From NCBI GenBank assembly GCA_947447005.1, contig CANFHO010000015.1:1-39247 (forward strand): a stretch of DNA of 39,247 bases. Reading direction: 5' to 3'. Source of the stretch: Chitinophagaceae bacterium. Lineage in GTDB: Bacteria; Bacteroidota; Bacteroidia; Chitinophagales; Chitinophagaceae. Below, piece by piece: positions 7,057 through 25,074 of the stretch (positions are counted from its first letter, which is position 1; each line of letters opens with the position of its first letter). Both the position numbers and the translations under genes were made by a program. The notes under the pieces were generated by a model. The model did not search any database, was not told where the DNA came from, and saw nothing but the letters and a program-made list of their open reading frames with translations.

Positions 7057-7094
7057 GGACGTATATTTGCTGCAAAATTACAATAGTAGTCAAC

Positions 7095-7697
7095 ATGTTT
7101 ACAGGAATTGTAGAAAAGGGTTTCGTTTCAGCCATCAAGACACAAGGTGAAGGTTTGATTATAACGGTACATCACCCGAATATTGACCAAGGATTGAAGT
7201 TGGGTGATAGTGTTGCCATTGACGGAGCCTGTCTTTCCATCATAGAAAAAGATGAAAATGGCTTTACATTTTTTGCAACATCCGAAACGATTGATAAAAC
7301 CATCATCCAATCTTATCAGGTTGGAAGGATTGTAAATGTGGAATTCCCGCTCAGACCCATGGATTTTTTAGGCGGACATCATGTACTTGGGCATATAGAT
7401 ACAAGTGGCAAAGTTATTTCCGTTGATAGGAATGAAGCATTCTGGTTTGTGGATATTGCGATTCCCGAACATTTTTCTCAGTATGTTGTTTATAAAGGTT
7501 CGATAGCTGTAAATGGGGTGAGTTTGACTGTAAATAATGTAACCGAATTGGTTATCAATTTGTGTCTGATCCCGGTTACGCTGGAGAAAAGTAGTCTTGG
7601 GATATTGGAAGCTGGAATGAACGTAAATCTGGAATTTGATATCCTCGCAAAATATACTGAACGAATACTAACGAAAAAGTCTTCTGCAGATGTTTGA
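7095..7697 (+). CDS. ribE: Riboflavin synthase (alpha subunit family)
   Basis: MFTGIVE start, duplicated lumazine-binding domains, GHHVLGHID and KGSIAVNGVSLTV motifs. Confidence 0.92.
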   Translation: MFTGIVEKGFVSAIKTQGEGLIITVHHPNIDQGLKLGDSVAIDGACLSIIEKDENGFTFFATSETIDKTIIQSYQVGRIVNVEFPLRPMDFLGGHHVLGHIDTSGKVISVDRNEAFWFVDIAIPEHFSQYVVYKGSIAVNGVSLTVNNVTELVINLCLIPVTLEKSSLGILEAGMNVNLEFDILAKYTERILTKKSSADV

Positions 7698-8889
7698 TGA
7701 ATTAAGTGATGCGCTGAGTGAATTTAAAAAAGGAAATCCAATTATTGTCACCGATGATGAATTGAGAGAAAATGAAGGTGATATTATTTTCCCGGCATGT
7801 TATTCTACTCAGGAAAAATTGAATTTTTGTGCCCAGTTTGGAAGGGGATTGGTTTGCATTGCCATAGACCAGGCCACTGCAAACAGATTGGAATTAAAAC
7901 CTTTAAGATCCAATCAGTCTGATAAGTTTCACACAGCTTTTTTTGACCCTATAGATGCTGCGCATATGCATGGTACAACTACCGGTATTTCGGCAGCAGA
8001 AAGATCAAATACCGCTTTATTGGTATCTGATAAAAATTCCAAGCCTTCAGATTTCATCAAACCAGGACATTTATTTCCTGTGGTTGCAAAAGAAAAGGGA
8101 TTGCTTGAAAGAGAGGGACATACAGAAGCTGCAGTTGATTTATGTAAAATGAGTGGATTGTCGCCTGCTGCCATTATTTGTGAAATCATGGATGATGCGG
8201 GAAACATGTTGCGCGGTCAGGCCATTTTTGATTTCGCTAAAAAGCATAAAACAAAAATCGTTTCTGTTCAGCAATTGATTGAAAAAAGAAAAGAAGAAAA
8301 AAATATTATCCAATACGCTGATTCTATTTTGCCAACCCAACATGGCACATTTAAAATTAAAGTTTTCAAAAACCTGGATGACCAAACAGAGCATGTATGC
8401 TTGATCATGGATTCGAAACCCGATCAAAAACCGCTTGTTCGTTTACACAGTGAATGTTTAACAGGTGATATTTTTGGAAGTTACCGATGTGATTGTGGAA
8501 ACCAGCTTCAATCAGCATTGGAGGCGATTTCAAAAAGAGGTCATGGAATGTTGGTGTATATCAGATCTCATGAAGGTAGAGGTATAGGCATAGGAAATAA
8601 AATTGCTGCGTATGCCTTACAGGATCATGGTGAAGATACGTACAATGCCAATAAACGACTTGGCTTTCAGGCAGATCAACGTGATTATTCAGATGCAATT
8701 GGTATTCTCAAAATGGAGAACTATACCGATATTGATTTAATCACCAACAACCCAGAAAAAATCAATTCGCTCATACAAGCAGGTATTCTGGTTGAGCAAT
8801 ATTCAATTCCATCAAAATTGAATGCATTCAACGAAAAATATTTGCAGGACAAAAAAAATATTGGAAACCATCAAATTAAAATGATATGA
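7690..8889 (+). CDS. ribBA: RibBA: DHBP synthase / GTP cyclohydrolase II
   Basis: DDELRENEGDIIFPA, REGHTEAAVDL; VRLHSECLTGDIFGSYRCDCGNQL, GRGIGIGNK. Confidence 0.94.
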   Translation: MFDELSDALSEFKKGNPIIVTDDELRENEGDIIFPACYSTQEKLNFCAQFGRGLVCIAIDQATANRLELKPLRSNQSDKFHTAFFDPIDAAHMHGTTTGISAAERSNTALLVSDKNSKPSDFIKPGHLFPVVAKEKGLLEREGHTEAAVDLCKMSGLSPAAIICEIMDDAGNMLRGQAIFDFAKKHKTKIVSVQQLIEKRKEEKNIIQYADSILPTQHGTFKIKVFKNLDDQTEHVCLIMDSKPDQKPLVRLHSECLTGDIFGSYRCDCGNQLQSALEAISKRGHGMLVYIRSHEGRGIGIGNKIAAYALQDHGEDTYNANKRLGFQADQRDYSDAIGILKMENYTDIDLITNNPEKINSLIQAGILVEQYSIPSKLNAFNEKYLQDKKNIGNHQIKMI

Positions 8890-9302
8890 TAGCTGTGATC
8901 AGATCCCGATTCAATGAAGAAATAACACAAATGCTGTTGAATGGATGTGTAAAGGAATTGGAGGCAAGAGAAGTTTCGTTTGATTTGTTTGAATGTCCTG
9001 GTTCTGTTGAAACAGTAGGTCTGTCAAAAAAATTAGCGGATGCAAACAAATATGATGCCATTATCGTTATAGGAGCCATCATCAAAGGAGATACAGATCA
9101 TTACGAATATGTTTGTCAGTATGTCACAAACGGATTAAGCATTGTTTCAACACAAATTGAAATACCATTGATATTTGGTATTCTTACAACCCAAACAGAA
9201 GAGCTTGCATTGGTTAGGGCTGATGAAGAACAAATGAATAAAGGCAAGGAGTTTGCAGAAACAGCCATGGAAATGAGCAATATTTTCAGAGGTATTCAAT
9301 AA
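8886..9302 (+). CDS. ribH: 6,7-dimethyl-8-ribityllumazine synthase family (short, 138 aa)
   Basis: IAVIRSRFNEEIT, GAIIKGDTDHYEYVC, FGILTTQTEELALVRA, NKGKEFAETA; ATGA overlap with ribBA. Confidence 0.88.
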   Translation: MIAVIRSRFNEEITQMLLNGCVKELEAREVSFDLFECPGSVETVGLSKKLADANKYDAIIVIGAIIKGDTDHYEYVCQYVTNGLSIVSTQIEIPLIFGILTTQTEELALVRADEEQMNKGKEFAETAMEMSNIFRGIQ

Positions 9303-9326: not shown

Positions 9327-10151
9327 TTATTTTCTCAGACCTTGCGATTTAAGATAGGCTATCAGCTCTTCAGGCTTATCTGATTGCATACCAGATACTC
9401 CCAATTGCAATGCCTTGTTCCAAACGGCTATTCCTTCAGATGATGATTGAACGTCTGGCCAAATATGCTTATTCAATGATTTCATCAGTTCAACATTTTC
9501 CTTCGTCAGTTCATAAACATTGCCATCCATAACATCCGGATTGGCAAACTTGATAAATTCCTCAAAAGTCATTGATTTTAGTTTGCTCATGATCAAAGGA
9601 ATTTCAGGATGGAGTTTCCGCCAATCTTCAAACTGCTTGACTGAATTGATATAAACGGCAACACGATGTTGCATTTTATATTGTGAGATCTTTTCATATG
9701 CTCGTTCTACTGAGGCATCTTTAAAATCCAGGTATATATTAATTTTGTCTTTGCAGGTTGCTAGAATTTCATCAAACGTTGGAATTGAAAATGAACCCCA
9801 TTCTGGGTGATTGACATCTTTCACGCGCAAAACAGACAGACTATCAAAAGAGGTATTTCTGATCACTTTTGATATACCTGTCATTCTTCTGGTATCACCA
9901 TCATGCATAATCACCAGCTGTGAATCAAGCGTTGTTCTTAGATCAATTTCTACATAATCAGCACCCGCTTTAATAGCATCTTTTATTGCCTGAACCGTAT
10001 TTTCAGGCGCATGCTCATGATTTCCCCTATGTGCAACAACGATTGGTGTGTTTTTGCTTTTGGGCAATTTAGGAAATTGGGCAAATACACATTGAATGTC
10101 CACACAAATCAGTGCAATTAAAAACATTCCTGATAGCAACGTGTTCCTCAT
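9327..10151 (-). CDS. Secreted glycerophosphodiester phosphodiesterase family protein
   Basis: Signal peptide; VAHRGNHEHAPENTVQAIKDAIKAGADYVEIDLRTTLDSQLVIMHD GDPD motif. Confidence 0.92.
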   Translation of the reverse strand: MRNTLLSGMFLIALICVDIQCVFAQFPKLPKSKNTPIVVAHRGNHEHAPENTVQAIKDAIKAGADYVEIDLRTTLDSQLVIMHDGDTRRMTGISKVIRNTSFDSLSVLRVKDVNHPEWGSFSIPTFDEILATCKDKINIYLDFKDASVERAYEKISQYKMQHRVAVYINSVKQFEDWRKLHPEIPLIMSKLKSMTFEEFIKFANPDVMDGNVYELTKENVELMKSLNKHIWPDVQSSSEGIAVWNKALQLGVSGMQSDKPEELIAYLKSQGLRK

Positions 10152-10159
10152 AGATAAGT

Positions 10160-11299
10160 TTATTTTGAATAAGTGCCACCAATTACCTGATCACACAAGC
10201 CAAAAGAAAGTGTCATTCCAGCACCACTGAGTGCATTGATCATTTTGACACCTGGTAAAATGTCAAGAACAATTTCTGTAGAACCATCCAACATTTTAGG
10301 ATAAATTCCATTCCATGATGCTGCGATTTTTTCAGAAGGGAATCGTGCAAATTTTTTCAGATAATCCAGGATAAGTTCATTGATGAAAGACTTATCAAAT
10401 GGATCATGAGATGGTCCATATTCATGTGAGTCACCCACAATAATTTCACCAGAACTATTTTGTGACACCATCACATGGATTCCCCATTTTACATATTCGG
10501 GCATTGTTTCTTCAACAAAGGATTTATATTTTTTTAATGAATCGCCCGCTTGCTTGAAGCTGGTGTAATGTGTTAATGACAATCCGCCGCACAATGATGG
10601 CCCCATTCTCCAATTGTCGGGTTGTGTTTCAAAACGCATCATTTGTAATTTGCATTTTGTGAGAGGCAACTTTGCAGTTACTTCAGGGAATAGATTTTCA
10701 AAATCAGGTCCGTTGCAAATGAAGATTTCATCTGCTTCTAAGACTTGATTTCCGGCAAAAACCTTACTGGTTTCAACTTTATTAACATGTGTATTCCACT
10801 TGAATTCTACATCATAATTTTCAGACAGGAATGAAGGAATATTTCTAATGGCTTTGGGAGAGTCAAGTATCATTTCATCAGGGCTAAAAATACCCCCCTT
10901 AAGTCCACTACCGGTGATTGCACTGGACATGCTTGATGCGCTGGATGCATCCAGTACTTGATAATTTCTTTCTTTGCCTGTTGTTGCAAAAAAATCTTGA
11001 ATGACTTCCATTTCCATATCTGAGTAGGCTAAATGCAAAGAGCCAACAGGATCTCGCCAGATATTAGCCTTTTCACAAGTTTCAATCCATATAGATTTAG
11101 AAAGCAATGCTCTTTCATAAAGATTTCCATCGGGTTGACCAATTGGCCATATCATTCCAAAATTTCTGATAGATGCTCCTACTGCAAAATCACTTCGGTC
11201 TATAACGGTCACTTTATACCCTCTGGTTGCCAATGCACGAGTACATGCCAAACCAACGATACCAGCACCAATTACAATTGCATTTTTTTTCATAGTCAT
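10160..11299 (-). CDS. TIGR03364-type FAD-dependent oxidoreductase (phosphonate-associated)
   Basis: VIGAGIVGLACTRALATRGYKVTVIDR dinucleotide fold; GASIRNFGMIWPIGQP; C-terminal DAO fold. Confidence 0.85.
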   Translation of the reverse strand: MTMKKNAIVIGAGIVGLACTRALATRGYKVTVIDRSDFAVGASIRNFGMIWPIGQPDGNLYERALLSKSIWIETCEKANIWRDPVGSLHLAYSDMEMEVIQDFFATTGKERNYQVLDASSASSMSSAITGSGLKGGIFSPDEMILDSPKAIRNIPSFLSENYDVEFKWNTHVNKVETSKVFAGNQVLEADEIFICNGPDFENLFPEVTAKLPLTKCKLQMMRFETQPDNWRMGPSLCGGLSLTHYTSFKQAGDSLKKYKSFVEETMPEYVKWGIHVMVSQNSSGEIIVGDSHEYGPSHDPFDKSFINELILDYLKKFARFPSEKIAASWNGIYPKMLDGSTEIVLDILPGVKMINALSGAGMTLSFGLCDQVIGGTYSK

Positions 11300-11303
11300 T
11301 TAT

Positions 11304-12614
11304 TTAGGAATATGTGATCGTGATTTCTTTTTTTTCTGTTTGTCTGAAATACAAAAAAGAAAATAAAGCAAATAAAGCGATGATAAATCCAACTACAAGT
11401 GAACTGGTTTTGAAAAAATCAATCCAGCTTACATTGGGCGTGCCAAAATTTTTATAAAGTAATATTATCATACTCCCGAAGTAGCCAGCAGCATCTGCTG
11501 TATACATTAAAAATCCAATGTTGCTTTTATATCTAAAATGTGCAATCCATCTTTCAAAGAGCAGGGCATGAAAACCAATATATGGGAGGTACATGGCAAA
11601 ACCAGAAAGGATCATCCATAGGACTGGCGATATTTTTCCAAGGTTGAAGAAAAGTGTTGTACATATCAGTATCAATCCTGAAAAAAATATAATATGAAAC
11701 ATAGAGAAAAAAGCAACGCCATTGTTTTTGATCATGATCATGCAGGCGATGATAATCAGTACAAAAAAAGCGATAGGTAATTCAGAATAGACCAATATTT
11801 CAGGGGTTTTCCCGTAACCAAGTGATGTCCAAAATTCAACTGCAAAATTGTCTCGCATATCTCTGAATACAGTAAGACAAACATAAATACCCACGGTGAG
11901 TAATATGCCCAAACCAAATCTTTTCGTAAAGTTTTTTCTTTCTGTATTGTTCATAGGAACACGCATGGTTCTGGAGGCCTTATCTGATTCTGTTGGTGCT
12001 TCCAATTTTTTCAACATTTGAATTCCAAGAATAAGAATAGGCAAAAACAACGAAGCAGTGATGAAAGGCATCCAAGTTTCACTTACGTGATAAGTAACCA
12101 ATAAGTATTTTCCAACAGCCTTAACTAAACCTGAAGAGATGATAAAACTCGATGCCATCACGGCACCTAACAATTCTGTTGATTTTCTTCCTTCTAAAAA
12201 ACTGAATACAACTCCCCATATCATCCCAAGTGGTATGCCATTTAAAAACATGAATAAGATTCCGTATGGTGATGGTAAGAGACCAAAAAAGAAAATGGTA
12301 ACATATGCAAATCCCATTAAAAAAAACAAGTATTTGACACGCTGGTCATTTCTCATTTCAGAAACCACTTTTATACCAAGATATTTTGACAAAGTGTATC
12401 CCAATAATTGAGCAATGATCAATAAGATTTTATAATCCATGCCCAGAACCTTGATTCCTTCAAAAGAAGCAGCAGTGAAGGGTTTTCTAAAGGCATACAT
12501 ACTCAGGTACGTAATAAATGATGCTATCGATGCCTGAATGATAAACAACAATTGCTTGTTGTTCCTGATATCAGATTTCAATACTTTTTCGGTTTGAACT
12601 TCTTTTGCAGTCAT
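11304..12614 (-). CDS. DUF5690 family MFS-like membrane protein
   Basis: About 12 TM segments; FITYLSMYAFRKPFTAASFEG N-terminus; located inside the phosphonate block. Confidence 0.75.
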   Translation of the reverse strand: MTAKEVQTEKVLKSDIRNNKQLLFIIQASIASFITYLSMYAFRKPFTAASFEGIKVLGMDYKILLIIAQLLGYTLSKYLGIKVVSEMRNDQRVKYLFFLMGFAYVTIFFFGLLPSPYGILFMFLNGIPLGMIWGVVFSFLEGRKSTELLGAVMASSFIISSGLVKAVGKYLLVTYHVSETWMPFITASLFLPILILGIQMLKKLEAPTESDKASRTMRVPMNNTERKNFTKRFGLGILLTVGIYVCLTVFRDMRDNFAVEFWTSLGYGKTPEILVYSELPIAFFVLIIIACMIMIKNNGVAFFSMFHIIFFSGLILICTTLFFNLGKISPVLWMILSGFAMYLPYIGFHALLFERWIAHFRYKSNIGFLMYTADAAGYFGSMIILLYKNFGTPNVSWIDFFKTSSLVVGFIIALFALFSFLYFRQTEKKEITITYS

Positions 12615-12617
12615 TGT

Positions 12618-13343
12618 CTAATTGAATTCTTTCATGATGAGATCTGGTAACTGCTTTACACTATCAATGATATGGGTATGCGGATATTTAATGAGTGTTT
12701 CTCTGGCATTTGCTCCACTCAATACTCCAATATTGCCTTTGCACCCGGCATTGTAGCCAGATAAAAGATCTGCGGGAGTATCGCCTATTTTTATTACTTC
12801 ATGAATACTTTGAATACCCAATTCATACATGGCTTTATAGATCAAATAAGGTGCAGGTCTTCCTATGCCATCTGTATTTTCAACATCCAATGCGATATCA
12901 ATCAATCCACGTTCTCTCCATTGCAAACCTTCCATGATGGCCATGTTTACATCTCGATGGAAACCAGTATCGGTGGCAATTTTGATGCCATTTTCCTTGC
13001 ACCAAATAAAAGTTTGTTCTGCACCATCCATTGCCTGAATATTTTTCCTATAGAAATCAATCATTAAAACAGAATAATGATCAAATATTTCCAAAGCCTT
13101 TTCGTGGTATTCAGGAAACCTGTATGATTCAAGATGCTCGATTTCAGCAGGAACTCCATTGTCGCGTGCAATCATGAATTCATACAGATGAATTTTGTTG
13201 GTTCCGATGGTTTTTTCAAAATCTGAAAGAGTTGCAGATAGTCCAAATTCCTTAGCTGCATTAAAAAGACATTTTGCTACCGCATTGTCATCACTGACTG
13301 TTGTTCCTGAAAGATCGAAAACAACAAGTTTAATTTTTCCCAT
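12618..13343 (-). CDS. Phosphonatase-like HAD hydrolase (copy 1)
   Basis: VVFDLSGTTVSDDN nucleophile motif, IKIGDTPADLLSGYNAGC C-terminal HAD motif. ATG at 13343 preferred over the longer ORF. Confidence 0.85.
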   Translation of the reverse strand: MGKIKLVVFDLSGTTVSDDNAVAKCLFNAAKEFGLSATLSDFEKTIGTNKIHLYEFMIARDNGVPAEIEHLESYRFPEYHEKALEIFDHYSVLMIDFYRKNIQAMDGAEQTFIWCKENGIKIATDTGFHRDVNMAIMEGLQWRERGLIDIALDVENTDGIGRPAPYLIYKAMYELGIQSIHEVIKIGDTPADLLSGYNAGCKGNIGVLSGANARETLIKYPHTHIIDSVKQLPDLIMKEFN

Positions 13344-14448
13344 CTGTATTTTTTTTTGAAGGATAAACACCTACCCGATGCGGGTTTCCTAAAATGGCAT
13401 AATCGTATGCATTTTTAACCTCATCAAGAGAATATTCTTGTCCTATCAATTTTGAAAATTGAAATGTTGACATGGTATCTTCAATAAACTCAACTGCATG
13501 AATCAAATCTTGCTCATTGTAATTATGAAGTCCTTTGATTGTCCAAATATTTCTGACTAATTTTTCTGCATTGATTTGCAGGTCTGCTTGTGGGAATGTG
13601 GAGCCTATCAATACCAGGGTTGCGCCAATATTCATGGTGTCGAAAGATGACATAATCACTTCGGGAATTCCTGTAAAATCGATAACTACATCTACTTTCT
13701 TTTTGACATCCGCTGTAGACAAAGAAAATTCTGGTGCTTCATTTTTTTCAGGTACTATGATTTTATCAGCGCCAAAATTCAAAGCAGTGATTGCTCTTTG
13801 TTCATTGGCATCGAGGGCCAATACTTCTTTAGCTCCCATTTTTTTTGCCATGGCACATGCAATGGTTCCCAACATACCTGTGCCGCAAATCATTACAATT
13901 TGATTCTTGATTATTCCCGCCATACGCATGGCCCCTGCAACCGTAGCCACTGAACAATTGATCAATGAAGCAACAGGATCAGAAACTTTTTCATCAACAA
14001 TGATGATGGGTGTATTTTTTCTTAGAATGATATACTCTGCAAGTCCGCCATGCAAATTGCTTTCCATGGTTATTTGTTCATGTCCATATTTGAAAAGATC
14101 ATGAGACTTTTGAGGTATTCCCTTTTTTGAATATTCGGATGTGGGGTCGCTTGCATAGATACCCCAGGTAACTCTGCTATCTATTATCAAAGGCAATCCT
14201 CTGAGATCTTTCGTGGGTGCGCCAGGACCAAGTTCCACTATATGCCCAGTGATTTCATGTCCGAGAATGGTTGGATTTTTTTCGGTGCGTTTTCCCTGAA
14301 AAGTATAAATATCACTTCTGCAGATGGTAGTATAACTTATTTTAACAAGTATCTCGCCTGTTTTGAGTGCAGGAATTTCGATTGTCTTTTTATGAAAAGA
14401 CATGGTAGCATTATCAAACTCAATATAGGATGAAACTCTATTCATCAA
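13330..14448 (-). CDS. Zinc-dependent alcohol dehydrogenase, phosphonate-catabolism-associated (TIGR03366-like)
   Basis: CRSDIYTFQGKRTEKNPTILGHEITGHI MDR Zn motif; GTGMLGTIACAMAKKMGA cofactor fold; HAD genes on both sides. Confidence 0.85.
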   Translation of the reverse strand: MMNRVSSYIEFDNATMSFHKKTIEIPALKTGEILVKISYTTICRSDIYTFQGKRTEKNPTILGHEITGHIVELGPGAPTKDLRGLPLIIDSRVTWGIYASDPTSEYSKKGIPQKSHDLFKYGHEQITMESNLHGGLAEYIILRKNTPIIIVDEKVSDPVASLINCSVATVAGAMRMAGIIKNQIVMICGTGMLGTIACAMAKKMGAKEVLALDANEQRAITALNFGADKIIVPEKNEAPEFSLSTADVKKKVDVVIDFTGIPEVIMSSFDTMNIGATLVLIGSTFPQADLQINAEKLVRNIWTIKGLHNYNEQDLIHAVEFIEDTMSTFQFSKLIGQEYSLDEVKNAYDYAILGNPHRVGVYPSKKNTDGKN

Positions 14449-15124
14449 TCAGATTTTTCAATTCATCCAATGAAGAAATGATATGATCAGGCATGTATTC
14501 CTCAAGTTGCTTATGAGAATAAGCACCTGTGGTTACTGCAACCACCAACCCACATCCTGCCATTTTTCCTTCCTGTATATCAACCATGGTATCACCCACT
14601 TTAATTACTTCCTTTGAATTAGTAATGCCAGCTTGTGCCATGAGTGAATTGATCATGAAAGGGAATGGCCTTCCTTTTTCAACTTCATCACTTGCAATGA
14701 TGAAATCCAGGTATCCTTTTTCAAGCCATTGCATTCGATCTACGATGGCATCAACAATCAATCTTGGAAAACCAGAATTCAATGCAACATATATTCCATT
14801 TTCCTTGAAAAACTGGAAGATCTCTTCTGCCCCTGGAAGAGCCTCAACCTCTGAAGAAGAAGTATAAAATTGAATCATTTCATTCATGAAAATATTATGG
14901 ATATAGTCCACATTTTCCTGTGTGAATTGAACCCCTTTTCTCTCCAACATAGTAGCAATGGCTTCGGTTTTTTTAAATCCCATCAATGGATTGATTTCTT
15001 CAAAAGAAACTTCCACACCAAATTGAACAAAAGCTTCAACAAAAGCTATAGCTACAAAATCTTTGTCAACCAAAGTTGTGCCTGCGATATCTAATACGGC
15101 AAGTTTAAATTTGCTGTTCATCAT
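14438..15124 (-). CDS. Phosphonatase-like HAD hydrolase (copy 2)
   Basis: LAVLDIAGTTLVDKD; MGFKKTEAI; IKVGDTMVDIQEGKMAGC. Confidence 0.85.
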   Translation of the reverse strand: MMNSKFKLAVLDIAGTTLVDKDFVAIAFVEAFVQFGVEVSFEEINPLMGFKKTEAIATMLERKGVQFTQENVDYIHNIFMNEMIQFYTSSSEVEALPGAEEIFQFFKENGIYVALNSGFPRLIVDAIVDRMQWLEKGYLDFIIASDEVEKGRPFPFMINSLMAQAGITNSKEVIKVGDTMVDIQEGKMAGCGLVVAVTTGAYSHKQLEEYMPDHIISSLDELKNLIDE

Positions 15125-15128
15125 AAAA

Positions 15129-15701
15129 TTATTTGAGGTTGCTGTTTAATAAATGATCAAGTGCCATTTGCTTGTATTTGGACATATCAGGCAAAGGCTT
15201 GTTTGTAATTTTTGCCTTGTCATCCCATTCTCTCATTTTGATATAATCTGAAAACATAGGATCCGTTTCAAATGCATGTGCTTCTTCGGCAGTCATTACG
15301 CCACCTTGATGTTCCAAAGTGATCTTACTAGCATCCGACAGTTTTTGATAATAGTCGTGATATTTGAACGTCAGAAAGCGTTTAGCTTCAACATGACTTT
15401 TAACCAATTTTGCTATTCGAACCGAAAAACCTCTTTGGATTAAATAATCATATCCAATGCCTTCATGATCCATCACACCAACACCATCCATCATTTCAAC
15501 TGGCATGATGAATTCACAGAGGTGTCCGATATCATGAAAAAATGCAGCCAATATAACTTCAGTGTCATATCCTTCTTCTTCTGCAAGCTGTGCAGCCTGA
15601 CACATGTGTTCGATCTGCGAAACAGGTTCTCCTATATAGTCAGACTTACCATAAATTTCATACAAAGAGAATACCTCTTCTATAACTGCATGTGGTTCCA
15701 T
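15129..15701 (-). CDS. HD-domain mixed-valent diiron oxygenase-like protein (PhnZ/TIGR03276-like)
   Basis: YIGEPVSQIEHMCQAA, AAFFHDIGH, MDHEGIG, KSHVEAKRFL, MREWDDKAK. Confidence 0.85.
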   Translation of the reverse strand: MEPHAVIEEVFSLYEIYGKSDYIGEPVSQIEHMCQAAQLAEEEGYDTEVILAAFFHDIGHLCEFIMPVEMMDGVGVMDHEGIGYDYLIQRGFSVRIAKLVKSHVEAKRFLTFKYHDYYQKLSDASKITLEHQGGVMTAEEAHAFETDPMFSDYIKMREWDDKAKITNKPLPDMSKYKQMALDHLLNSNLK

Positions 15702-15709
15702 GAATTGAA

Positions 15710-18427
15710 TTATTTTTTCTTTGATTTGCTATTTTGTTCCTTGTAGTGATTCTTTCTCATGTCATCTTCATCATCCATTTCTGGGCCTTTCATTACTTTT
15801 CTCCAGTCAATACCTCTGTTGTATTTTTTCATGGCTGTTTCCGGCTTGAAAATTCTTTCATCCGATTTTTCCAAATCATAAGTAGAATAATCAGGAACTG
15901 AGGTGAAAAAATCTTTCAAGAGAGAAGCTGTTACATCATATTGGTTCACATAAGATACACCTAAAATATTATAAATAGTTTTCAGGATGGAACCAAAATT
16001 TGCATGGGTATGGGAAACATAACCACGTTTAACATATGGACCAGCCATCATAAGTATGCTTCGATGAGCGTCCACGTGATCTACTCCTCCTTGCGGATCA
16101 TCTTCAGTGATAATAACCAGTGTATTTTTCCAATAAGGTGTTCTTGATAAGAAATGAAGAATTCTACCAATGGCAAGGTCATTGTCTGCCACAAAACTTT
16201 GCGGAAACAAATATCCATCTGCTGGTCTTGCACCAGATGTGTGATCATTTGGAACTTGCATGGTAATTAATCCAGGCATGGTATCTTTTCCATTCAACCA
16301 CATCTTAGTGAACTCAGATTCAAATTGATCCATACGAAACTGATCAGGAATATTACTATTGAAACCAGCATAGTTGTGGCTTGTTCTGGAATACAAAGCT
16401 TTTTGCATTGGCACCATTACACCATGGCCTGCACCAGTAGCCGTATCCATCCACTCTTCCCTTACATGCGCAGTTTCATTGGCTTCGCCAAAATTATAAA
16501 ATGAAACTCCTTTTCTTTCCAATGCTTCCCAGAGTCCGCCCTTTTCTGCAAAATCTTCAGGATCCATGCTTCCTGTTGACCCAGGAAATCTTCTTCCGGG
16601 TGCATCAGAAAGGAGCATGGCAGTTTTAGAAGTTTTAGAGTTTGTTTCAACCCATTCGTTTGGTATCACACCCATCATCCAGTGATGACCATGGATGGAT
16701 GCATCGCTGTCGCAATAGAAATTATCGCTGAAAGAATATTTGGTTGCAATTTTTTTATGATTGGGAGTAACTCTTGCTTTTAAGATGGTATCTTTTCTCA
16801 GATAAAGATCTACGTCTACTCCAAATCTTGCCAAGGTGCTATCACCATTGGCTTGTTTTAGATAACCAAAAATTTCATCGTATGTTCTGTTCTCCTTGGT
16901 GATATAAACAATGTGTTTGATAGGTGAATCTACTTCTGCAAAATCAGTTGGCAGAGGATTGTTTTCATTTTTTATGGGAGATGTTACAAATGTATTATCC
17001 AATACACGCTGCGTATATAGTTTCAACTGATCTGCATTGGGAATGTCGATGGATTGAAATGTTGCCAATTGAATATCGCCTACATATGTTCCTTGTTCAG
17101 GAGCTTTAAAACCCTTACCTCCGTTGGGCCCTGCGCCTAACCCTCTTCCGCTAACAGCATAAATTTTTTGGTTCTCTTTAGAATATATCACACGTGAAGG
17201 ACCCCAACCAGTTGGTATATGTCCAACCGTGGAATCTGTTTTTAAATCAATCACTGCAAGTGAATTAAAACCTAGCAGTGCTACATACAATCTTGAATTT
17301 TCTTCATCAAGTGAGAGGCCAAATGGCAAAAAGCCTCTGTACTTATCAATTCTCTTATCAGCAGTGATTACAATATCTTTGACTACCCTTCCATTTTTAT
17401 AATCAATCACTGAAATATTATCATTTGTTGCATTGGAAACATAGGCATAATGATTCCCAACAACTATAGAGTTCGGACTAGATCCTCCGATGACTTCTGC
17501 ATCTTCAATCCATTGTCCTACCAGTTTTCCTGTTTTGATTTTATAACTTACCTTATTACTATCCAGATCAATCACAAAAACACTCATCGCTTCAGGAGAA
17601 TTGGGATCCCCAACTCCCGGAATTTTTTTACCATCAATGATGGTTCCGTTGATCGACTCCTTTGAATTATGTGCATAAGGATGACGGTCAATAAGCATTT
17701 TATTGTAATTGCTATCGTTGATGCCTTCTATCAAAGGATATGCATACATTCCTACATTAGCCACCAATACTGTTTTTTTATCGGGGCTCAATGCCAATCC
17801 GAAAGGCAATCTTCCAGATGGAATAGTGGATTTTAATTTTTTTGTTTTTAGATCGATGCGCACTACTCTGTAATTCGCAAGATCAAGGGCAATGAGCTCT
17901 TCTTCTGCATCATTATAAATAAGATCAGAAGTTAAACTATGATTGTAATTTTTAGCACCTATCCTGCCATTTAAGGAATAACGATCTATTATTTTAAGAG
18001 AATCAATATCATATGAAATGATATCTCCTTTATCTCCACCACTCAAAAAAACGATATTGCTGTTTTTATAGAAAGAAACACCCAACATGGAACCTTTTTC
18101 GAAGGGCGACTTAATTTTTCCCTTATAATCCGGAATTCTTGTAATTGAATTCTTCTGAAGATCAATGATCGAGAAAACCCCATTGTGTAGTGTAACTATT
18201 TTTTTCCCATCCGGTGAAAGTTTCATTCCAAATGGATCATGTGTCAATCTCAATACATTTCCTGCAGGAGTAACATATCTTCCAGAAGGAAGAACAGAAA
18301 TACCGTTTGGATTGACCATGGCAGTCTCATTTTTACCAGGAACCTGCAAACTGACTTTATTTTGTGCGTATAACTGGCCCTGACCTAAAACAGTGAGAAT
18401 GAATACAATTGAAAAAAATAGTTTCAT
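15710..18427 (-). CDS. Secreted bifunctional YVTN beta-propeller / phosphoesterase (PF04185-like)
   Basis: Signal peptide; repeated beta-propeller motifs (e.g. PFGLALSPDKKTVLVANV); C-terminal IVYITKENRTYDEIFGYL and HTHANFGSILKTIYNILG. Confidence 0.88.
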   Translation of the reverse strand: MKLFFSIVFILTVLGQGQLYAQNKVSLQVPGKNETAMVNPNGISVLPSGRYVTPAGNVLRLTHDPFGMKLSPDGKKIVTLHNGVFSIIDLQKNSITRIPDYKGKIKSPFEKGSMLGVSFYKNSNIVFLSGGDKGDIISYDIDSLKIIDRYSLNGRIGAKNYNHSLTSDLIYNDAEEELIALDLANYRVVRIDLKTKKLKSTIPSGRLPFGLALSPDKKTVLVANVGMYAYPLIEGINDSNYNKMLIDRHPYAHNSKESINGTIIDGKKIPGVGDPNSPEAMSVFVIDLDSNKVSYKIKTGKLVGQWIEDAEVIGGSSPNSIVVGNHYAYVSNATNDNISVIDYKNGRVVKDIVITADKRIDKYRGFLPFGLSLDEENSRLYVALLGFNSLAVIDLKTDSTVGHIPTGWGPSRVIYSKENQKIYAVSGRGLGAGPNGGKGFKAPEQGTYVGDIQLATFQSIDIPNADQLKLYTQRVLDNTFVTSPIKNENNPLPTDFAEVDSPIKHIVYITKENRTYDEIFGYLKQANGDSTLARFGVDVDLYLRKDTILKARVTPNHKKIATKYSFSDNFYCDSDASIHGHHWMMGVIPNEWVETNSKTSKTAMLLSDAPGRRFPGSTGSMDPEDFAEKGGLWEALERKGVSFYNFGEANETAHVREEWMDTATGAGHGVMVPMQKALYSRTSHNYAGFNSNIPDQFRMDQFESEFTKMWLNGKDTMPGLITMQVPNDHTSGARPADGYLFPQSFVADNDLAIGRILHFLSRTPYWKNTLVIITEDDPQGGVDHVDAHRSILMMAGPYVKRGYVSHTHANFGSILKTIYNILGVSYVNQYDVTASLLKDFFTSVPDYSTYDLEKSDERIFKPETAMKKYNRGIDWRKVMKGPEMDDEDDMRKNHYKEQNSKSKKK

Positions 18428-18447
18428 AATTAAGGGTTTTAAAAATA

Positions 18448-18478
18448 AGTTGGCGAAACTTAAAAAGTTTCGCCAACT
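18448..18478 (-). terminator. 14-bp perfect stem-loop between susD-like gene and phosphoesterase gene
   Basis: AGTTGGCGAAACTT-AAA-AAGTTTCGCCAACT; on the minus strand it is followed by TATTTTTAAAA. Confidence 0.75.
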
Positions 18479-18521
18479 ATGTTCAACATAAGGTCAGACT
18501 GTATAAAGGATGAGAAAATGC

Positions 18522-20111
18522 TTATTGGATAATCCACATTTTAGCGAAGATGTCGTCGTTGCCAGCGTACTGACTTTGAACAGCAGCATCCCTGTTTGCC
18601 TTATTGGTACTCAATTCAGCAGCAGGATACTGGAAGCGCAATGGAATGTTTCCATTGGTGCTGATACCAGATCCAGTTGCAAATGCAGGTACACCTGTTC
18701 TTCTCCACTGGTAGTAACCTTCGAGACCTGAGTTACGAGCGAAAGAAAAATATTTTTGCAAAAGAATTTGATTCAAACCAGTTGCGTTGTTACCAGCATA
18801 TTTTACTTCAGTCTGTGCAAAATAATCTGCATAGTTGAAAGTGATACTTGTTGTAACATAATCAGCCAAAGTGATTGCACCAGCACGTTGGAAAGTAACG
18901 GTATTTGCTCCATCGTTTACCCCATAGTAAGCGAAGTTAGCTTTGATACCATTTTGATACCAAGTATCTGCATTGCCAGTTGCCCAACCTCTGTTGATAC
19001 CTTCAGCAATGTTCAAACACATTTCTGAATAGCTAACAAGTGGGGTATTTTCGGCAGTGTATCCATCATAGTAACGTTTCCTGTTGTACAAAGAAAATTT
19101 ACCATTTTGGACACCTGCAGCCATATTTGAAAGATCCAAACCAGTTGAGGCTCCAACAAATGAATTGTAAGAAGTATCCGAAAATCCAAGACCTCTAGCA
19201 GGTTCTGCCACTTTCATCACACGAAGATCTTTCAAAGCAGCAAGGTTATTTACCCAAGTAGCTGCCAGGTTGTAACGCAATGCGTCAAAACCAAAAGATT
19301 CTTTGTTGTCAGGATATTTGTTGTTAACTGCGTTATAAACAAACTCAAGGTTATCAGATCCAGAAGTCATCAAAGGATATTTCGCTGGATTGCTGATGAT
19401 ATCACTGAATTGTTGTTTTACTTTCAAATCAGTGTCAGCATCTTTCTTAGACAATTGGATCAAAACACGTAAACGAAATGCATTTACCACTTTTTGCCAA
19501 GCTTTGATTGCATCCAATGGGTTTTTAGCACCACTTGTTCTCTCCAAGAAGAAGATATCACCTTGCAATGAAACGTCAGACTTCGCAATAAGAGCTGAAA
19601 ACATAGTGTTAGACTCTTCAAGCAAAGCCAGAGACTGGATGAACACTTGCTTTTGTGAATCATATTTTGGAGTTGGCGTTGCCAATTTTTTCAATGCCTC
19701 AGACATTGGAATATCTCCCATTTTCAAAGACATGTTTACGAACATGTATGCTTTCAAAAATTTACCGATAGCCGCGTAAACGTTTACGTCTGCACCAGTT
19801 GTTTTCTTTGCTTCTGTTTCCATTGCAACCACATTGTTCAATGTGCTATATGTAAGACCTGCAGCACCTGTCCAATACCTATTATCGCCATAATAAGTAT
19901 AGTTACGACAAGTAAATTGGCTCCATCTCTCTTCATCGCTGTCAGGATACACAGGCAAACCACTCAAAATACCTCTCAAAATCAAATATGGAGGAACAGA
20001 TACCGGTTGGTTTGGGTTCAAGCTGTACTCTTCAAACTTCTTGGTACAGCTGCTCAATACGATGGCAATGATCACCATCAGCATTGAACCTATTTTAATA
20101 AAATTTTTCAT
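18522..20111 (-). CDS. SusD/RagB-like outer-membrane lipoprotein
   Basis: Lipobox MKNFIKIGSMLMVIIAIVLSSC; SusD-like fold region; directly downstream of SusC. Confidence 0.92.
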   Translation of the reverse strand: MKNFIKIGSMLMVIIAIVLSSCTKKFEEYSLNPNQPVSVPPYLILRGILSGLPVYPDSDEERWSQFTCRNYTYYGDNRYWTGAAGLTYSTLNNVVAMETEAKKTTGADVNVYAAIGKFLKAYMFVNMSLKMGDIPMSEALKKLATPTPKYDSQKQVFIQSLALLEESNTMFSALIAKSDVSLQGDIFFLERTSGAKNPLDAIKAWQKVVNAFRLRVLIQLSKKDADTDLKVKQQFSDIISNPAKYPLMTSGSDNLEFVYNAVNNKYPDNKESFGFDALRYNLAATWVNNLAALKDLRVMKVAEPARGLGFSDTSYNSFVGASTGLDLSNMAAGVQNGKFSLYNRKRYYDGYTAENTPLVSYSEMCLNIAEGINRGWATGNADTWYQNGIKANFAYYGVNDGANTVTFQRAGAITLADYVTTSITFNYADYFAQTEVKYAGNNATGLNQILLQKYFSFARNSGLEGYYQWRRTGVPAFATGSGISTNGNIPLRFQYPAAELSTNKANRDAAVQSQYAGNDDIFAKMWIIQ

Positions 20112-20149
20112 ATAATTATTTTCAATTGTTAATAATGCTGAAAGCTTGA

Positions 20150-23100
20150 TTAGAATTTCACATTCACGTTAAAGCCATAGCTTCTTGTAGTTGGTGTTTG
20201 CAAGCCATACTCTCTGCTGTTTCCACTATAAATAGTTCTTCCTGCGTATTGGTCAACATCCAAATCTTTGAATGCTTTAGGGAAGAAATACAAGAGGTTA
20301 CGACCAACCAATGACACATCGATGCTGCTGATGAAACTCTTATTGAAGAATTTAGCAGGCAAAGCGTATGTCAATGTCAATTCACGAAGCTTAGCAAATG
20401 TTTTAGCAACTGTGGTATATTCTGGTTGGTTGAAAGTTGAACTCACATAATCTTGAATCCATCTTACTTTAGAGGCATTTTGTTTGAACTGAAGTGCAGA
20501 CATATTTGTGATGTGGCCATCAATTGGATCAAATGTGATACCAACACCATTAGACACCTGAGCACCTTGTCCTACATAAATACCAGCATAACCAGCATCT
20601 TTGTAATGGTAGAATTCATATTCACGAGCAGCACCGATTGCACCTTCAACAGTTGAAATATCACGACCACCTTCAACACCTTTACGCTTGACATAGTCTT
20701 GAATCAAACCACCCACTTTACCATCAAATTGGAAACCAAGGCTGAATGATTTGTAGTTGATTTTATTATAGATAGCCCAGCTGAATTTCACGTCTGCATT
20801 ACCCAAGTATTGAGCTTTAGGCAATTTAACTACATAGCCAGATGCATCGTGAATCATTTGTCCGTCTGGTGTCCTTGCTATCAAAGTACCATACAATTTA
20901 TCTACCCTATCACCTTGCTTAAACTGATAGTTTGAGAAAGCTGCTGGAAGATCAGTATACCTTTCAGTAAATGTAGACCAGTTAACCAATACGTTCCATC
21001 CGAAGTTTTTCTTCATGATAGGTGTACCAGTCAATGACATTTCGATACCCTTGATTTGTGTTTTTACAGCGTTGGTTGTATATCCAGATATACCTGTTGT
21101 TTGAGAGATTGGGTAGTTACGGATATTTGGACCAAGTGTATTTGCATACGCTGTAAAGCTGAAACCTAACCTGTTCTTCAAGAATTTAACATCCAAACCA
21201 ATTTCATTGCTTGAAGTCTTAGATACCTGCGTATTTGAATCCAATGCAGAAGTTGGAGCATAAGCACCAGTTGTATTGTTATACACTGTACCAATACTGT
21301 ATGCTGGAGCAGACAATGCATATGTTGGTCCACCATAAGTAGATACATAAGCAGCACCATAACCAACAGGATAACCTGCAGGACCAGCATATTGTGTAGT
21401 ACTTGGAGATTTTGCAATTGCTGTACTAGCCCTTACTTTCAAGAAAGAAACAACTTCTGGAAGTTTCACATAATCAGAAATAACTGAAGCTGCTGTGAAT
21501 GAAGGATAGAAGAATGCATTTTTGTTTGCAGGCTGAGCAGAATGTTTATCCATACGGCCGTTTGCAGACAAAGTCAAATATTTGTTTACATCCAGGTTTG
21601 CAGAATAGTAAGAAGACAATACCAACATGTTTGCAGTATTACTATATGCCATTACCGGATTCAATGAGTTTGCAAATGTATACAAACCAGGAACGTTCAA
21701 ATAGTTTGTAGTGGTGAAGCTTGAATTGTATTGGAAAGAACGAGCGTTTCCACCCACAAATGCATCCAGGTTCATGCCCAAAGGCAAAGACTTCTTATAC
21801 TTAACAATAGCTTCAACGTTGTTGTCGAACATTGCTCTAACATCTTCACGATAATCCCCTCTTTCACCTTCACGACCATAAGGGTGAGCTGAATAAGGCA
21901 TTTTTTCGTTGCGCATTACGTTGAATGTACTTACGTTAGCTCGAACAACTGCCTCGAGGTTAGAGTTGATCTTATAGGTAAGACCCAAGTTACCATAAAC
22001 GTCATTTTTATAGTGGCCTCTAAGCCACTCATAGCTCATGAACCATGGGTTGTGGTAACGCTGATATTCTGCGAAAATCGCTTGTGTACCAACTTTACCA
22101 GGCTGCCATATACCACGGATATCTGGAGCCATTACATCCCAGTCAGCACCAGTCCAAATGGTAATGTTATAGATGATAGAGTTTGGACCGTAGTTTACAT
22201 CTGGGAAGTTAGGAGTGAACTGACGATTGTAGTTCAGGTTACCTTCCAATTTCAACTTGCTTGTAAGATCATAGCTAGCGCTGATATTAAAGTTAGCTGT
22301 ATTCAATTTTGTATTTGGAACAATACCTTTTTGATACGATTGGCTCATTGACATACGGATGGAAGAACGATCCGTAGTTGAACTGAAGCTTACGTTGTTG
22401 GTTGTCAACAAACCAGCTTGAATAAAACGAGCAAGGTTGTTTTTACCACGAGCCAAATAAGGGGTACCTTTTCTAACACCTGTTACTGGATCGATAGGAG
22501 AATCATATTGAGGAATCAACTGACCATCAAATTTAGGACCCCAAACATCATAGTCGTTATCGTTGATACCACCACCTTTACCATCACCAAAAGAATACTG
22601 AGCGTAATCACCACCACCATACAAATCTTGTGTTCTTGGCAATGCGATGAAACCTTTATCTAATTGAGTAGAAGAGTTGAATTCGATTTGATAACCTTTA
22701 GCAGTCTTAGCTCCTTTCTTTGTAGTAATCAAAATCGCACCATTCTGCGCACGGCTACCGTAGATTGCTGTTGCAGCAAGACCTTTCAAGATTGTGTAAG
22801 ACTCAATATCATCTGGGCTAAGGTTCCATGTATCAGAGTTGATTGGCATACCATCAACAACATACAATGAGATGTTTTGACCACGCAATGAAACTGCTGG
22901 AGCACCAAGAATTTCACGGCTGATGTTTACATCCAAACCTGCAATTTTACCAACCAAACCATTGATTGGATTTGGTTCTCTTGCTTTGATCAAATCAGAT
23001 CCTTTCACTTCCTGTACGGAATAACCTAGACGTTTGGTTTCCTTTTTGATACCCAACGCTGTTACTACAACCTCATTCAGGCTTTTTGCATCAACACTTA

Positions 23101-23395
23101 CAGAAATTACTTGTACTCCTGTTCCTTTGATTTTGTAATCAAAGGCTTTGATACCAACACCAGAAATGGTAAGTACATCACCATCAGCTGCGTCAATGGT
23201 GAATACACCATCTACATTGCTGGTAACACCTTTGTTTTTGCTTTTTAAAATAACTGATGCGCCTGATACCGGCTGACCTGCATCACTGGAAAGAATCTTA
23301 CCAGTAATGTTTTTTGTAGATTGCGCCATCATGGAAATTGTTGATCCGATGATGAGACAAACCACAAACAAGAACTTGTTCGTTAAATTTCTCAT
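20150..23395 (-). CDS. SusC/RagA-like TonB-linked outer-membrane protein
   Basis: Signal peptide, carboxypeptidase-like N-domain ITGKILSSDAGQPVSGASV, plug VVVTALGIKKETKRLGYSVQEV, C-terminal aromatic barrel strand. Confidence 0.95.
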   Translation of the reverse strand: MRNLTNKFLFVVCLIIGSTISMMAQSTKNITGKILSSDAGQPVSGASVILKSKNKGVTSNVDGVFTIDAADGDVLTISGVGIKAFDYKIKGTGVQVISVSVDAKSLNEVVVTALGIKKETKRLGYSVQEVKGSDLIKAREPNPINGLVGKIAGLDVNISREILGAPAVSLRGQNISLYVVDGMPINSDTWNLSPDDIESYTILKGLAATAIYGSRAQNGAILITTKKGAKTAKGYQIEFNSSTQLDKGFIALPRTQDLYGGGDYAQYSFGDGKGGGINDNDYDVWGPKFDGQLIPQYDSPIDPVTGVRKGTPYLARGKNNLARFIQAGLLTTNNVSFSSTTDRSSIRMSMSQSYQKGIVPNTKLNTANFNISASYDLTSKLKLEGNLNYNRQFTPNFPDVNYGPNSIIYNITIWTGADWDVMAPDIRGIWQPGKVGTQAIFAEYQRYHNPWFMSYEWLRGHYKNDVYGNLGLTYKINSNLEAVVRANVSTFNVMRNEKMPYSAHPYGREGERGDYREDVRAMFDNNVEAIVKYKKSLPLGMNLDAFVGGNARSFQYNSSFTTTNYLNVPGLYTFANSLNPVMAYSNTANMLVLSSYYSANLDVNKYLTLSANGRMDKHSAQPANKNAFFYPSFTAASVISDYVKLPEVVSFLKVRASTAIAKSPSTTQYAGPAGYPVGYGAAYVSTYGGPTYALSAPAYSIGTVYNNTTGAYAPTSALDSNTQVSKTSSNEIGLDVKFLKNRLGFSFTAYANTLGPNIRNYPISQTTGISGYTTNAVKTQIKGIEMSLTGTPIMKKNFGWNVLVNWSTFTERYTDLPAAFSNYQFKQGDRVDKLYGTLIARTPDGQMIHDASGYVVKLPKAQYLGNADVKFSWAIYNKINYKSFSLGFQFDGKVGGLIQDYVKRKGVEGGRDISTVEGAIGAAREYEFYHYKDAGYAGIYVGQGAQVSNGVGITFDPIDGHITNMSALQFKQNASKVRWIQDYVSSTFNQPEYTTVAKTFAKLRELTLTYALPAKFFNKSFISSIDVSLVGRNLLYFFPKAFKDLDVDQYAGRTIYSGNSREYGLQTPTTRSYGFNVNVKF

Positions 23396-23542: not shown

Positions 23543-25063
23543 TTATTGGATCAGTTTCAATGTAGCAGTCCTTTCACTTAGCAAATACAAATAATAGAAT
23601 CTTGTTGTAGATCTATTGCGTTTTTCTTCAATTTTATTCAACAATGTAATCTTATTAAAATAATGGCGGTATAAAACAACTGGGTCTTTGAAATAATTTG
23701 ATGTTGTAATATATAATAGACTATCTCTTTCCGGCAGACCACCGTTTATTTGATTAATCCAATGAAATTGATGGATGTCATTTACAGGCCCCAATGCAAA
23801 TGAACGCAATTCAGTTCCAGAAGTAATATATTCATTGATATGTGCAGCGGGAAACCAAGCAGAACTCACCAATGGAACTTTTTCAAGTTTGCTTCCTTTG
23901 ATTGCCTGCAGCATTTTAGCGCTAGATTCTTTCCAACCATACATATCCAGGGTAAAATCACCACTTCCATAGTGCAACATGTCTTTCTTATTTCCTATGG
24001 TTCCTGGAAAATAATTAATTACAGCTATGCCCAAAACCAAAACAACTGAAAACATGACAACCATAGCCCTCATCCACAAATTCAATTTTCCTTGTATAAA
24101 CTCTTGCTGCAATCCAGTTGATACCAAAATGATAATGGGTAAGTACGCTGGACCACTCCAATGCGGCAATGTTTCACGAGATAAAGAAAGTGCCCAAAAG
24201 CCAAACAACAATGGAAAACTCATTAAAAAAAGAAATTCTCTTTTCTTATCAAATGAAGCATTTGATTTTTTTATTGCCAACTGAATAAAAATAAATATCC
24301 AAACAATGGGGTTTTGATAAAATATTTCGCCCAAAATCTCTCTTACAAAATATTGAAAACTGATATGTCCTGCGAGACCAACTCTTCCGGTATAAAAGGA
24401 AAAATTTACCCAGTTATTCTTATAATTCCAATAAATGATTGGTATTAAAAATACAGCCGTGATCAACATTGATAAATATAAGTGCCATGTTGAAAATAAA
24501 TCTCGCTTATTAATCAAAATAAACAGAAAAAATCCAATCCACAAATAAGCTGCATGAAACTTGCACAGAATAGCGCAACCCGATAAGATACCAAACCATA
24601 TCAATAGTTCATGTTGTTGATTAATATCTATTGTTTCTGAAAAAAGCAAATAGGATGCAATATAAAAAGCCAAGGTCCAAAATAAGATCATTGGTGCATC
24701 TGGCATAATAAAAACTCCTGCTATGACACTAAAATAGAATGACATTGAAAATAAGATGGAAGAAATCAATGCCTGCTTTTTAGTGCCATATAATAATGTG
24801 GTTTTATATATGATGAAAGTTGATACGGATGATGCAACGATTGAAAATAACCTGTAAAACAAATGATGTTTTACATGCAAATTGAAACTGAAAATTTTCG
24901 AAATCAATCCAACCATCAATGGATGGTCATAATAATGGTAAGATGGATAACGTGCATATTGAAGATAATAAACTTCATCATTGCCTAAAGGAATACCAAA
25001 TCCCACAATCAAATGAATGATAGTAGAAATTACAATGACCTGTTTTATGTTAAGCTGCAACAT
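23543..25063 (-). CDS. GT39 / ArnT-like membrane glycosyltransferase
   Basis: DEVYYLQYARYPSYHYYDHPLMVGL N-terminal loop motif and many TM segments. Confidence 0.85.
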   Translation of the reverse strand: MLQLNIKQVIVISTIIHLIVGFGIPLGNDEVYYLQYARYPSYHYYDHPLMVGLISKIFSFNLHVKHHLFYRLFSIVASSVSTFIIYKTTLLYGTKKQALISSILFSMSFYFSVIAGVFIMPDAPMILFWTLAFYIASYLLFSETIDINQQHELLIWFGILSGCAILCKFHAAYLWIGFFLFILINKRDLFSTWHLYLSMLITAVFLIPIIYWNYKNNWVNFSFYTGRVGLAGHISFQYFVREILGEIFYQNPIVWIFIFIQLAIKKSNASFDKKREFLFLMSFPLLFGFWALSLSRETLPHWSGPAYLPIIILVSTGLQQEFIQGKLNLWMRAMVVMFSVVLVLGIAVINYFPGTIGNKKDMLHYGSGDFTLDMYGWKESSAKMLQAIKGSKLEKVPLVSSAWFPAAHINEYITSGTELRSFALGPVNDIHQFHWINQINGGLPERDSLLYITTSNYFKDPVVLYRHYFNKITLLNKIEEKRNRSTTRFYYLYLLSERTATLKLIQ

Positions 25064-25074
25064 GTGATCTACGT

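Follow-up and report, generated by a model that had tools for sequence, protein, structure and literature searches.

What does a SusC/SusD (SusCD) outer-membrane pair import when the genes beside it resemble enzymes of phosphonate metabolism? The question is raised by a 39,247-nucleotide stretch of DNA from a Chitinophagaceae bacterium (the window; assembly GCA_947447005.1, contig CANFHO010000015.1), in which ten genes at positions 9327-23395 encode a SusCD pair, secreted phosphoesterases, predicted phosphonate enzymes and a DUF5690 transporter. Judged from its sequence, the locus very probably serves phosphonate catabolism. The best reading is a Pus-type (SusCD-based) phosphonate-ester locus feeding two routes of carbon–phosphorus (C–P) cleavage, which we consider the likely one. 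With similar confidence, SusCD is taken to import the phosphonate esters that the locus would catabolise.

Organization of the locus

The initial annotation, made from the sequence alone, had described ten co-directional minus-strand genes. All ten open reading frames are present, with intergenic gaps of −11 to +94 bp (38 bp between SusC and SusD, 94 between SusD and the phosphoesterase, then 8, 4, −11, −11, 3, 4, and 8). Their proteins were assigned by Pfam/NCBIfam profile search against curated cut-offs, and the models match the families proposed, from SusC through the glycerophosphodiester phosphodiesterase (GDPD). The genes are as follows, in order of transcription.

20150-23395, minus strand: SusC/RagA-type TonB-dependent outer-membrane transporter, 1081 aa (TIGR04056, 433 bits, over cut-off)
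18522-20111, minus strand: SusD-like surface lipoprotein, 529 aa (PF12771/PF12741); the N-terminal signal ends in LSSC, a lipobox read from the sequence
15710-18427, minus strand: secreted bifunctional protein with an N-terminal beta-propeller and a PF04185 phosphoesterase domain, 905 aa, with an N-terminal signal peptide
15129-15701, minus strand: predicted PhnZ-like HD-domain mixed-valent diiron oxygenase, 190 aa, cytoplasmic (TIGR03276, 205.5 bits; cut-off 214.6)
14438-15124, minus strand: HADa, predicted PhnX-like phosphonatase, 228 aa (TIGR03351, 181.5 bits; cut-off 218.9)
13330-14448, minus strand: zinc-type alcohol dehydrogenase (ADH), 372 aa, accessory module (TIGR03366, 298.7 bits; cut-off 328.1)
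12618-13340, minus strand: HADb, second PhnX-like HAD, accessory module (TIGR03351, 178.3 bits; same cut-off); the start is the ATG at 13340, with an alternative GTG at 13370
11304-12614, minus strand: DUF5690 inner-membrane transporter, a divergent relative of the organophosphate:phosphate antiporters (OPA) (PF18943, 498.8 bits, over cut-off)
10160-11299, minus strand: FAD-dependent amine oxidoreductase of PbfD/HpnW type, 379 aa (TIGR03364, 392.2 bits; cut-off 285.1)
9327-10151, minus strand: secreted GDPD, 274 aa, with a signal peptide (PF03009, 90 bits, over cut-off)

The enzymes had been attributed to four TIGRFAMs. Of these, only TIGR03364 reaches its curated cut-off. The scores for TIGR03276, TIGR03366, and both copies of TIGR03351 are 4 to 19% too low, yet all other models trail them widely. 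No carbohydrate-active enzyme (CAZyme) family occurs among the ten proteins, which upholds the reported absence of a glycosidase. SusCD is thus co-localised with phosphoesterases and an inner-membrane transporter, without CAZymes, the combination by which a Pus locus is recognised.

Conservation of the gene set

Homologous loci were surveyed by their HD gene, which yielded 80 loci; counts refer to the 59 of at least 18.5 kb. The 80 loci come mostly from Chitinophagaceae, Mucilaginibacter, and Pedobacter, and additionally from Cyclobacterium, Ohtaekwangia, Algoriphagus, Imperialibacter, Thermoflexibacter, and others. In the 59 long loci, nearly all from Bacteroidota, DUF5690 is found in 56, the FAD enzyme in 54, SusC in 51, SusD in 50, a secreted phosphoesterase of any kind in 49, and a HAD in 47. 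SusCD, a secreted phosphoesterase, DUF5690, and the FAD enzyme occur jointly in 48. Twenty arbitrary 20-kb windows of the same genomes served as controls: SusC is present in six, every other locus gene in none, and the joint set in 0/20.

The HD gene is carried by 54 of 197 genomes of the same family. Twenty neighbourhoods extracted from the family contain all or most of SusC-SusD-secreted phosphoesterase-HD-HAD-DUF5690-FAD in nearly every case. Two architectures are seen. Chitinophagaceae have a single operon, SusC-SusD-phosphoesterase-HD-HAD-DUF5690-FAD. Mucilaginibacter and Pedobacter have two divergent units, [FAD-DUF5690-HAD-HTH/cupin] and [HD-SusC-SusD-phosphoesterase-GDPD]. The expectation of a conserved gene order across Bacteroidota therefore holds for the gene set, which is kept phylum-wide, and fails for the order itself. 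Retention of the same partners through rearrangement is firmer evidence of a functional link than a fixed order.

A protein with an XRE-type helix-turn-helix (HTH) and a cupin domain (e.g., L034:16028-16597, L numbers denoting loci) is encoded next to 33 of the 59 long loci and is likely a local regulator. It is not seen in the window.

SusCD and the secreted phosphoesterases

SusCD pairs usually import large ligands. The PF04185 phosphoesterase retains candidate metal-binding and catalytic residues E512, N513, D728, H729, E775, D776, D777, and H784, which are invariant in 21 homologues, and copies with about 64% identity are found in the loci of many relatives. The structure model of the 905-residue protein is poor (pLDDT 67), and the best matches in a fold search are propeller proteins only. 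A GDPD-like gene is present in 17/59 long loci.

Enzymes predicted to cleave C–P bonds

The FAD enzyme belongs to the same family as Acinetobacter baumannii PbfD1, which oxidises N-methyl-2-aminoethylphosphonate (N-methyl-AEP) to phosphonoacetaldehyde; oxidation of N-methyl-AEP or AEP to this product has been shown for PbfC and PbfD enzymes (PMC10590968). As the genome of the window lacks PhnW, any phosphonoacetaldehyde is likely to come from the FAD enzyme; the same role has been proposed for PbfD2 (PMC10590968).

Both HADs find their best PDB match in phosphonoacetaldehyde hydrolase (PhnX). The nucleophile Asp12 and the cap-domain Schiff-base Lys53 of PhnX are kept in HADa (where the lysine is K52) and in HADb, and the two residues are invariant across 16 HAD sequences. 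The register of the alignment was fixed by PDB variants that show R at the Lys position (2ioh) and A at the Asp position (1swv). HADa and HADb are paralogues with 35% identity. As they score below the curated cut-offs, not only for TIGR03351 but also for the PhnX model (125 and 103 bits; cut-off 220), they are described as PhnX-like and not as PhnX.

The HD protein aligns with PhnZ (PDB 4n71) with an E value of 1e-42 and 45% identity across 179 positions, and is 37% identical to TmpB. Its Y22xxE25 loop, H32, H56-D57, H79, H103, and D160 are all invariant in 20 homologues. The corresponding residues of PhnZ and TmpB bind the two iron atoms and make up the substrate loop (PMC8177086). The protein is classed as PhnZ-like only, since its TIGR03276 score is below the cut-off, a value exceeded by 11 of the 57 matches in the family. 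It would cleave the C–P bond of a 1-hydroxyphosphonate oxidatively. One homologue bears on this substrate. In a metagenome-assembled genome labelled as a deltaproteobacterium (L077:9977-11389), a PhnZ-type HD domain is followed in the same chain by a PhyH domain resembling the hydroxylase PhnY*. The HD domain is 61% identical to that of the window and scores 223 bits, above the TIGR03276 cut-off; the best model for the PhyH domain is the methylphosphonate hydroxylase PhnY* (NF052437, E 1e-62). The fusion supports a 1-hydroxyphosphonate as the probable substrate of the HD clade of the window.

The ADH and HADb form an accessory pair. Among the loci examined, the pair occurs only in the window, L051, L053, and L057, always in the order HADa-ADH-HADb, and HADb is 68-77% identical to the ADH partner in the other three. 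In L055, the ADH directly follows HADa and the locus ends at the contig end. The constant association of the two genes suggests a third route, for example from 2-hydroxyethylphosphonate to phosphonoacetaldehyde.

In the genome of the window, searches detect no phosphoenolpyruvate (PEP) mutase, no PhnJ, and no PhnW above cut-off; PhnA was not searched for in the genome. The lack of PhnW and C–P lyase noted for the locus thus extends genome-wide. Phosphonate biosynthesis is rejected as an explanation of the genes for want of a PEP mutase, and a C–P lyase or PhnW pathway encoded elsewhere in the genome is rejected on the missing PhnJ and PhnW. In the family, PhnW scores over its cut-off in 12/197 genomes, all of which have DUF5690. 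The two genes are adjacent, within 300 bp, in 6 of the 12. In four genomes, one of them from the same genus as the window, PhnW and the HD gene are no more than 10.5 kb apart.

DUF5690 is related to organophosphate antiporters

The AlphaFold2 model of DUF5690 (pLDDT 91) has the fold of the major facilitator superfamily (MFS). A profile search against PDB sequences gives no match, and fold search and profile-profile comparison were adopted for this reason. In the PDB fold search, human SLC37A4/G6PT structures hold several of the top places, and other MFS proteins score similarly. In a global hhalign comparison, DUF5690 matches GlpT/UhpT/UhpC with an E value of 4e-7, compared with 0.12-0.66 for six other Bacteroidota MFS sets; the match to the antiporters is weaker in local mode (E 0.0019). 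Adding the Bacteroidota relative L176 to the antiporter set gives an E value of 7e-11, L176 having been picked post hoc for its motif in the first transmembrane helix (TM1).

Residues R43-K44, Y73, K77, and R251 of DUF5690, all invariant, align with R45-K46, Y76, K80, and R269 of GlpT; for R43, K77, and R251, the invariance spans 42 homologues. The two arginines of GlpT, R45 and R269, bind phosphate. DUF5690 thus shares with GlpT, UhpT, and SLC37 the fold, an RK.F motif in TM1, an SK motif in TM2, and an aligned later arginine, whereas sequence identity is about 15% and the Pfam family is separate. The pairing with a secreted GDPD gene also has a parallel, Escherichia coli glpT being paired with glpQ. 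By these comparisons, DUF5690 is specifically related to the OPA antiporters. As for its cargo, it may take in aminophosphonates, probably in exchange for phosphate.

DUF5690 also tracks the HD gene. Among the 197 family genomes, it is present in 54/54 that bear the HD gene (Fisher p 4e-24), and it lies within 10 kb of 52 of the 57 HD matches. Across the phylum, 345 genomes contain the HD gene in 13 and DUF5690 in 34, the latter including all 13 with the HD gene. No paper on DUF5690 was found in a search of the open-licence literature.

At L159, L161, L164, L165, and L167-L173, DUF5690 has no recognisable phosphonate gene nearby; several of these places share neighbour genes (clusters c2, c7, and c8).

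Proposed pathway and alternatives

In the proposed pathway, SusD and SusC would bind and import a phosphonate-bearing molecule whose size or polarity keeps it from passing through porins; phosphonolipids, fragments of phosphonoglycans, and glycerol esters are examples. Outside the cytoplasm, the GDPD and the secreted phosphoesterase would cut P–O esters and so release small aminophosphonates. DUF5690, the antiporter-like MFS protein, would carry these into the cytoplasm, probably against phosphate. There, the FAD oxidase and HADa may convert AEP or N-methyl-AEP via phosphonoacetaldehyde into acetaldehyde and phosphate. In parallel, the HD oxygenase may convert a prehydroxylated headgroup, for example (R)-1-hydroxy-AEP, into glycine and phosphate. 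More speculatively, ADH and HADb could contribute a third step or route, turning 2-hydroxyethylphosphonate via phosphonoacetaldehyde into acetaldehyde or disposing of the aldehyde product.

Capture, extracytoplasmic release, import, and cytoplasmic C–P cleavage had been put forward in the initial annotation, and every sequence test run strengthens the idea: the family assignments, the catalytic residues, conservation of the gene set, the kinship of DUF5690, the PhnW neighbours, and the PhnZ-PhnY* fusion. The annotation had named unrelated enzyme families and an unconserved gene order as findings that would speak against it. Both points were examined, and the proposal withstands them. A wider version is more tentative, and we stop slightly short of favouring it. 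In it, an outer-membrane system dedicated to macromolecular phosphonates, whether phosphonolipids or phosphonoglycans, would extend across the phylum; DUF5690 would represent a new class of phosphonate:phosphate antiporter; and the C–P bond would be cleaved by three headgroup routes in parallel (amine oxidase-HAD, HD oxygenase, and ADH-HADb).

Several observations weigh against the phosphonate-ester reading. The surveyed loci, which were picked for their HD gene, lack phylogenetic independence, and the control windows were scanned with the proteins of the locus itself, which favours the contrast. Three of the four TIGRFAMs score under their cut-offs. The SusCD pair is not found in 10/59 long loci, and L091, L098, and L116 keep DUF5690 together with HAD or FAD genes despite no SusCD being found, so SusCD is not indispensable. 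In the family, 45 of 102 DUF5690 places are near neither HD nor PhnW, several of them with a HAD or FAD gene; as DUF5690 is also present alone, its cargo may be broader. Lastly, the locus has no PhnY*-like hydroxylase gene to feed the HD enzyme. Two PhyH proteins encoded in the genome were considered for this role and rejected: they are 22-25% identical to the hydroxylase domain of the fusion, their genes are unlinked to the locus, and their NF052437 scores are weak (49 and 25 bits; cut-off 500). The HD enzyme would consequently need a headgroup that is hydroxylated beforehand, and use of such a headgroup would account for the missing hydroxylase. Hydroxy-AEP occurs in a polysaccharide of Acanthamoeba and in a lipid of Bdellovibrio stolpii (PMC8154272). 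A hydroxylated headgroup from such a source would accord with an outer-membrane importer and esterases.

In one alternative, the ligands are small aminophosphonates, either free or in simple ester form (AEP, N-methyl-AEP, or glycerol-AEP), and SusCD acts as a high-affinity scavenger of small ligands with no lipid or glycan involved. This is unlikely, although the SusD is of PF12771 type, unlike the PF07980/PF14322 PusD of Flavobacterium johnsoniae, the locus has no glycosidase and no lipase beyond the phosphoesterases, and some relatives carry DUF5690 and the enzymes without SusCD. At least one secreted phosphoesterase in 49/59 loci would be superfluous for free AEP, and the large ligands usual for SusCD are likewise at odds with such a role.

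Still less probable is a Pus locus for general organophosphate (phosphodiester) scavenging, with the phosphonate enzymes as a minor side branch. The secreted GDPD and phosphoesterases would suit it, as would the kinship of DUF5690 to glycerol-3-phosphate and hexose-phosphate antiporters and the phosphodiesterases of Flavobacterium Pus loci; against this, the FAD enzyme and the HAD are as constant as the phosphoesterases (54/59 and 47/59), and neither a Schiff-base HAD nor an amine oxidase nor PhnZ is needed to scavenge phosphodiesters. That the enzymes merely resemble phosphonate enzymes and act on other metabolites, such as amino-sugar phosphates, is very improbable. The sub-threshold scores would fit, and published activity for PhnX-like (TIGR03351) HADs was not found, yet the PhnX-specific lysine and the PhnZ-specific YxxE are both invariant, and the HD-PhnY* fusion and the PhnW gene neighbours point to phosphonates.

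Comparison with known systems

In Flavobacterium, a SusCD system induced by low phosphate (PusCD) is mentioned in one sentence as co-located with phosphonate-degrading enzymes (PMC8115612). SusCD beside phosphonate genes is thus not a wholly new idea. PusD1 and PusD2 belong to PF07980/PF14322, whereas the SusD of the window belongs to PF12771. That study demonstrates induction by low phosphate; in its main text, genes for PhnZ, HAD, FAD, or DUF5690 proteins are not named and no phosphonate is tested (PMC8115612).

The Achromobacter cluster hpnW-phnX-phnSTU-lysR-phnHD has the same three kinds of enzyme, namely the TIGR03364 FAD oxidoreductase, a phosphonatase, and the TIGR03276 HD protein; both operons lack PhnW (PMC11203657). 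The uptake side is Bacteroidota-specific: Achromobacter has an ABC transporter and a LysR regulator, and the window has SusCD, secreted phosphoesterases, and DUF5690. The Achromobacter HAD is a true PhnX, whereas that of the window is PhnX-like (PMC11203657). The PbfD/PhnX hydrolytic AEP pathways likewise proceed from an FAD amine oxidase to a phosphonoacetaldehyde-cleaving HAD without PhnW; no outer-membrane import or esterase module is described for them, and the HAD of the window falls in the TIGR03351 sister clade (PMC10590968). PhnY*/PhnZ and TmpA/TmpB share the HD mixed-valent diiron oxygenase with the full set of active-site residues (PMC8177086, PMC10574752). They include a partner hydroxylase, which the window locus lacks and L077 has in fused form.

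In Maribacter forsetii, the expressed SusCD pair P177_RS04595/04600 was assigned to a laminarin pathway, and its neighbours are an alkaline phosphatase, an FAD-dependent oxidoreductase, and a 'phosphonatase-like hydrolase' (PMC11345257). Compared by published description, its kinship to the window locus is a lead only. SusCD pairs without CAZymes, such as this one, may serve phosphorus and not carbon uptake.

A description of the present gene set was not found in the open-licence literature. Many natural phosphonates occur bound in lipids and glycans, and a described bacterial import route for such bound phosphonates was not found in the literature; the locus is a candidate for one. DUF5690 gains a testable role. 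The locus also bears on the joint role of HpnW and PhnHD, a question posed for Achromobacter (PMC11203657).

Flanking genes

Riboflavin genes flank the locus at 5953-9302, with ribE, ribBA, and ribH on the plus strand and ribD on the minus strand. ribH ends beside the operon encoding the FAD enzyme, with 24 bp separating it from the GDPD gene, which is convergent to it. Upstream of susC, 23543-26310 holds genes for a PMT_2 (ArnT-like) glycosyltransferase and for a protein that matches no Pfam family. The PMT_2 gene was excluded from the locus because its relatives adjoin only a few loci; four relatives (L034, L037, L044, and L045) have PMT and PAP2 genes following the locus.

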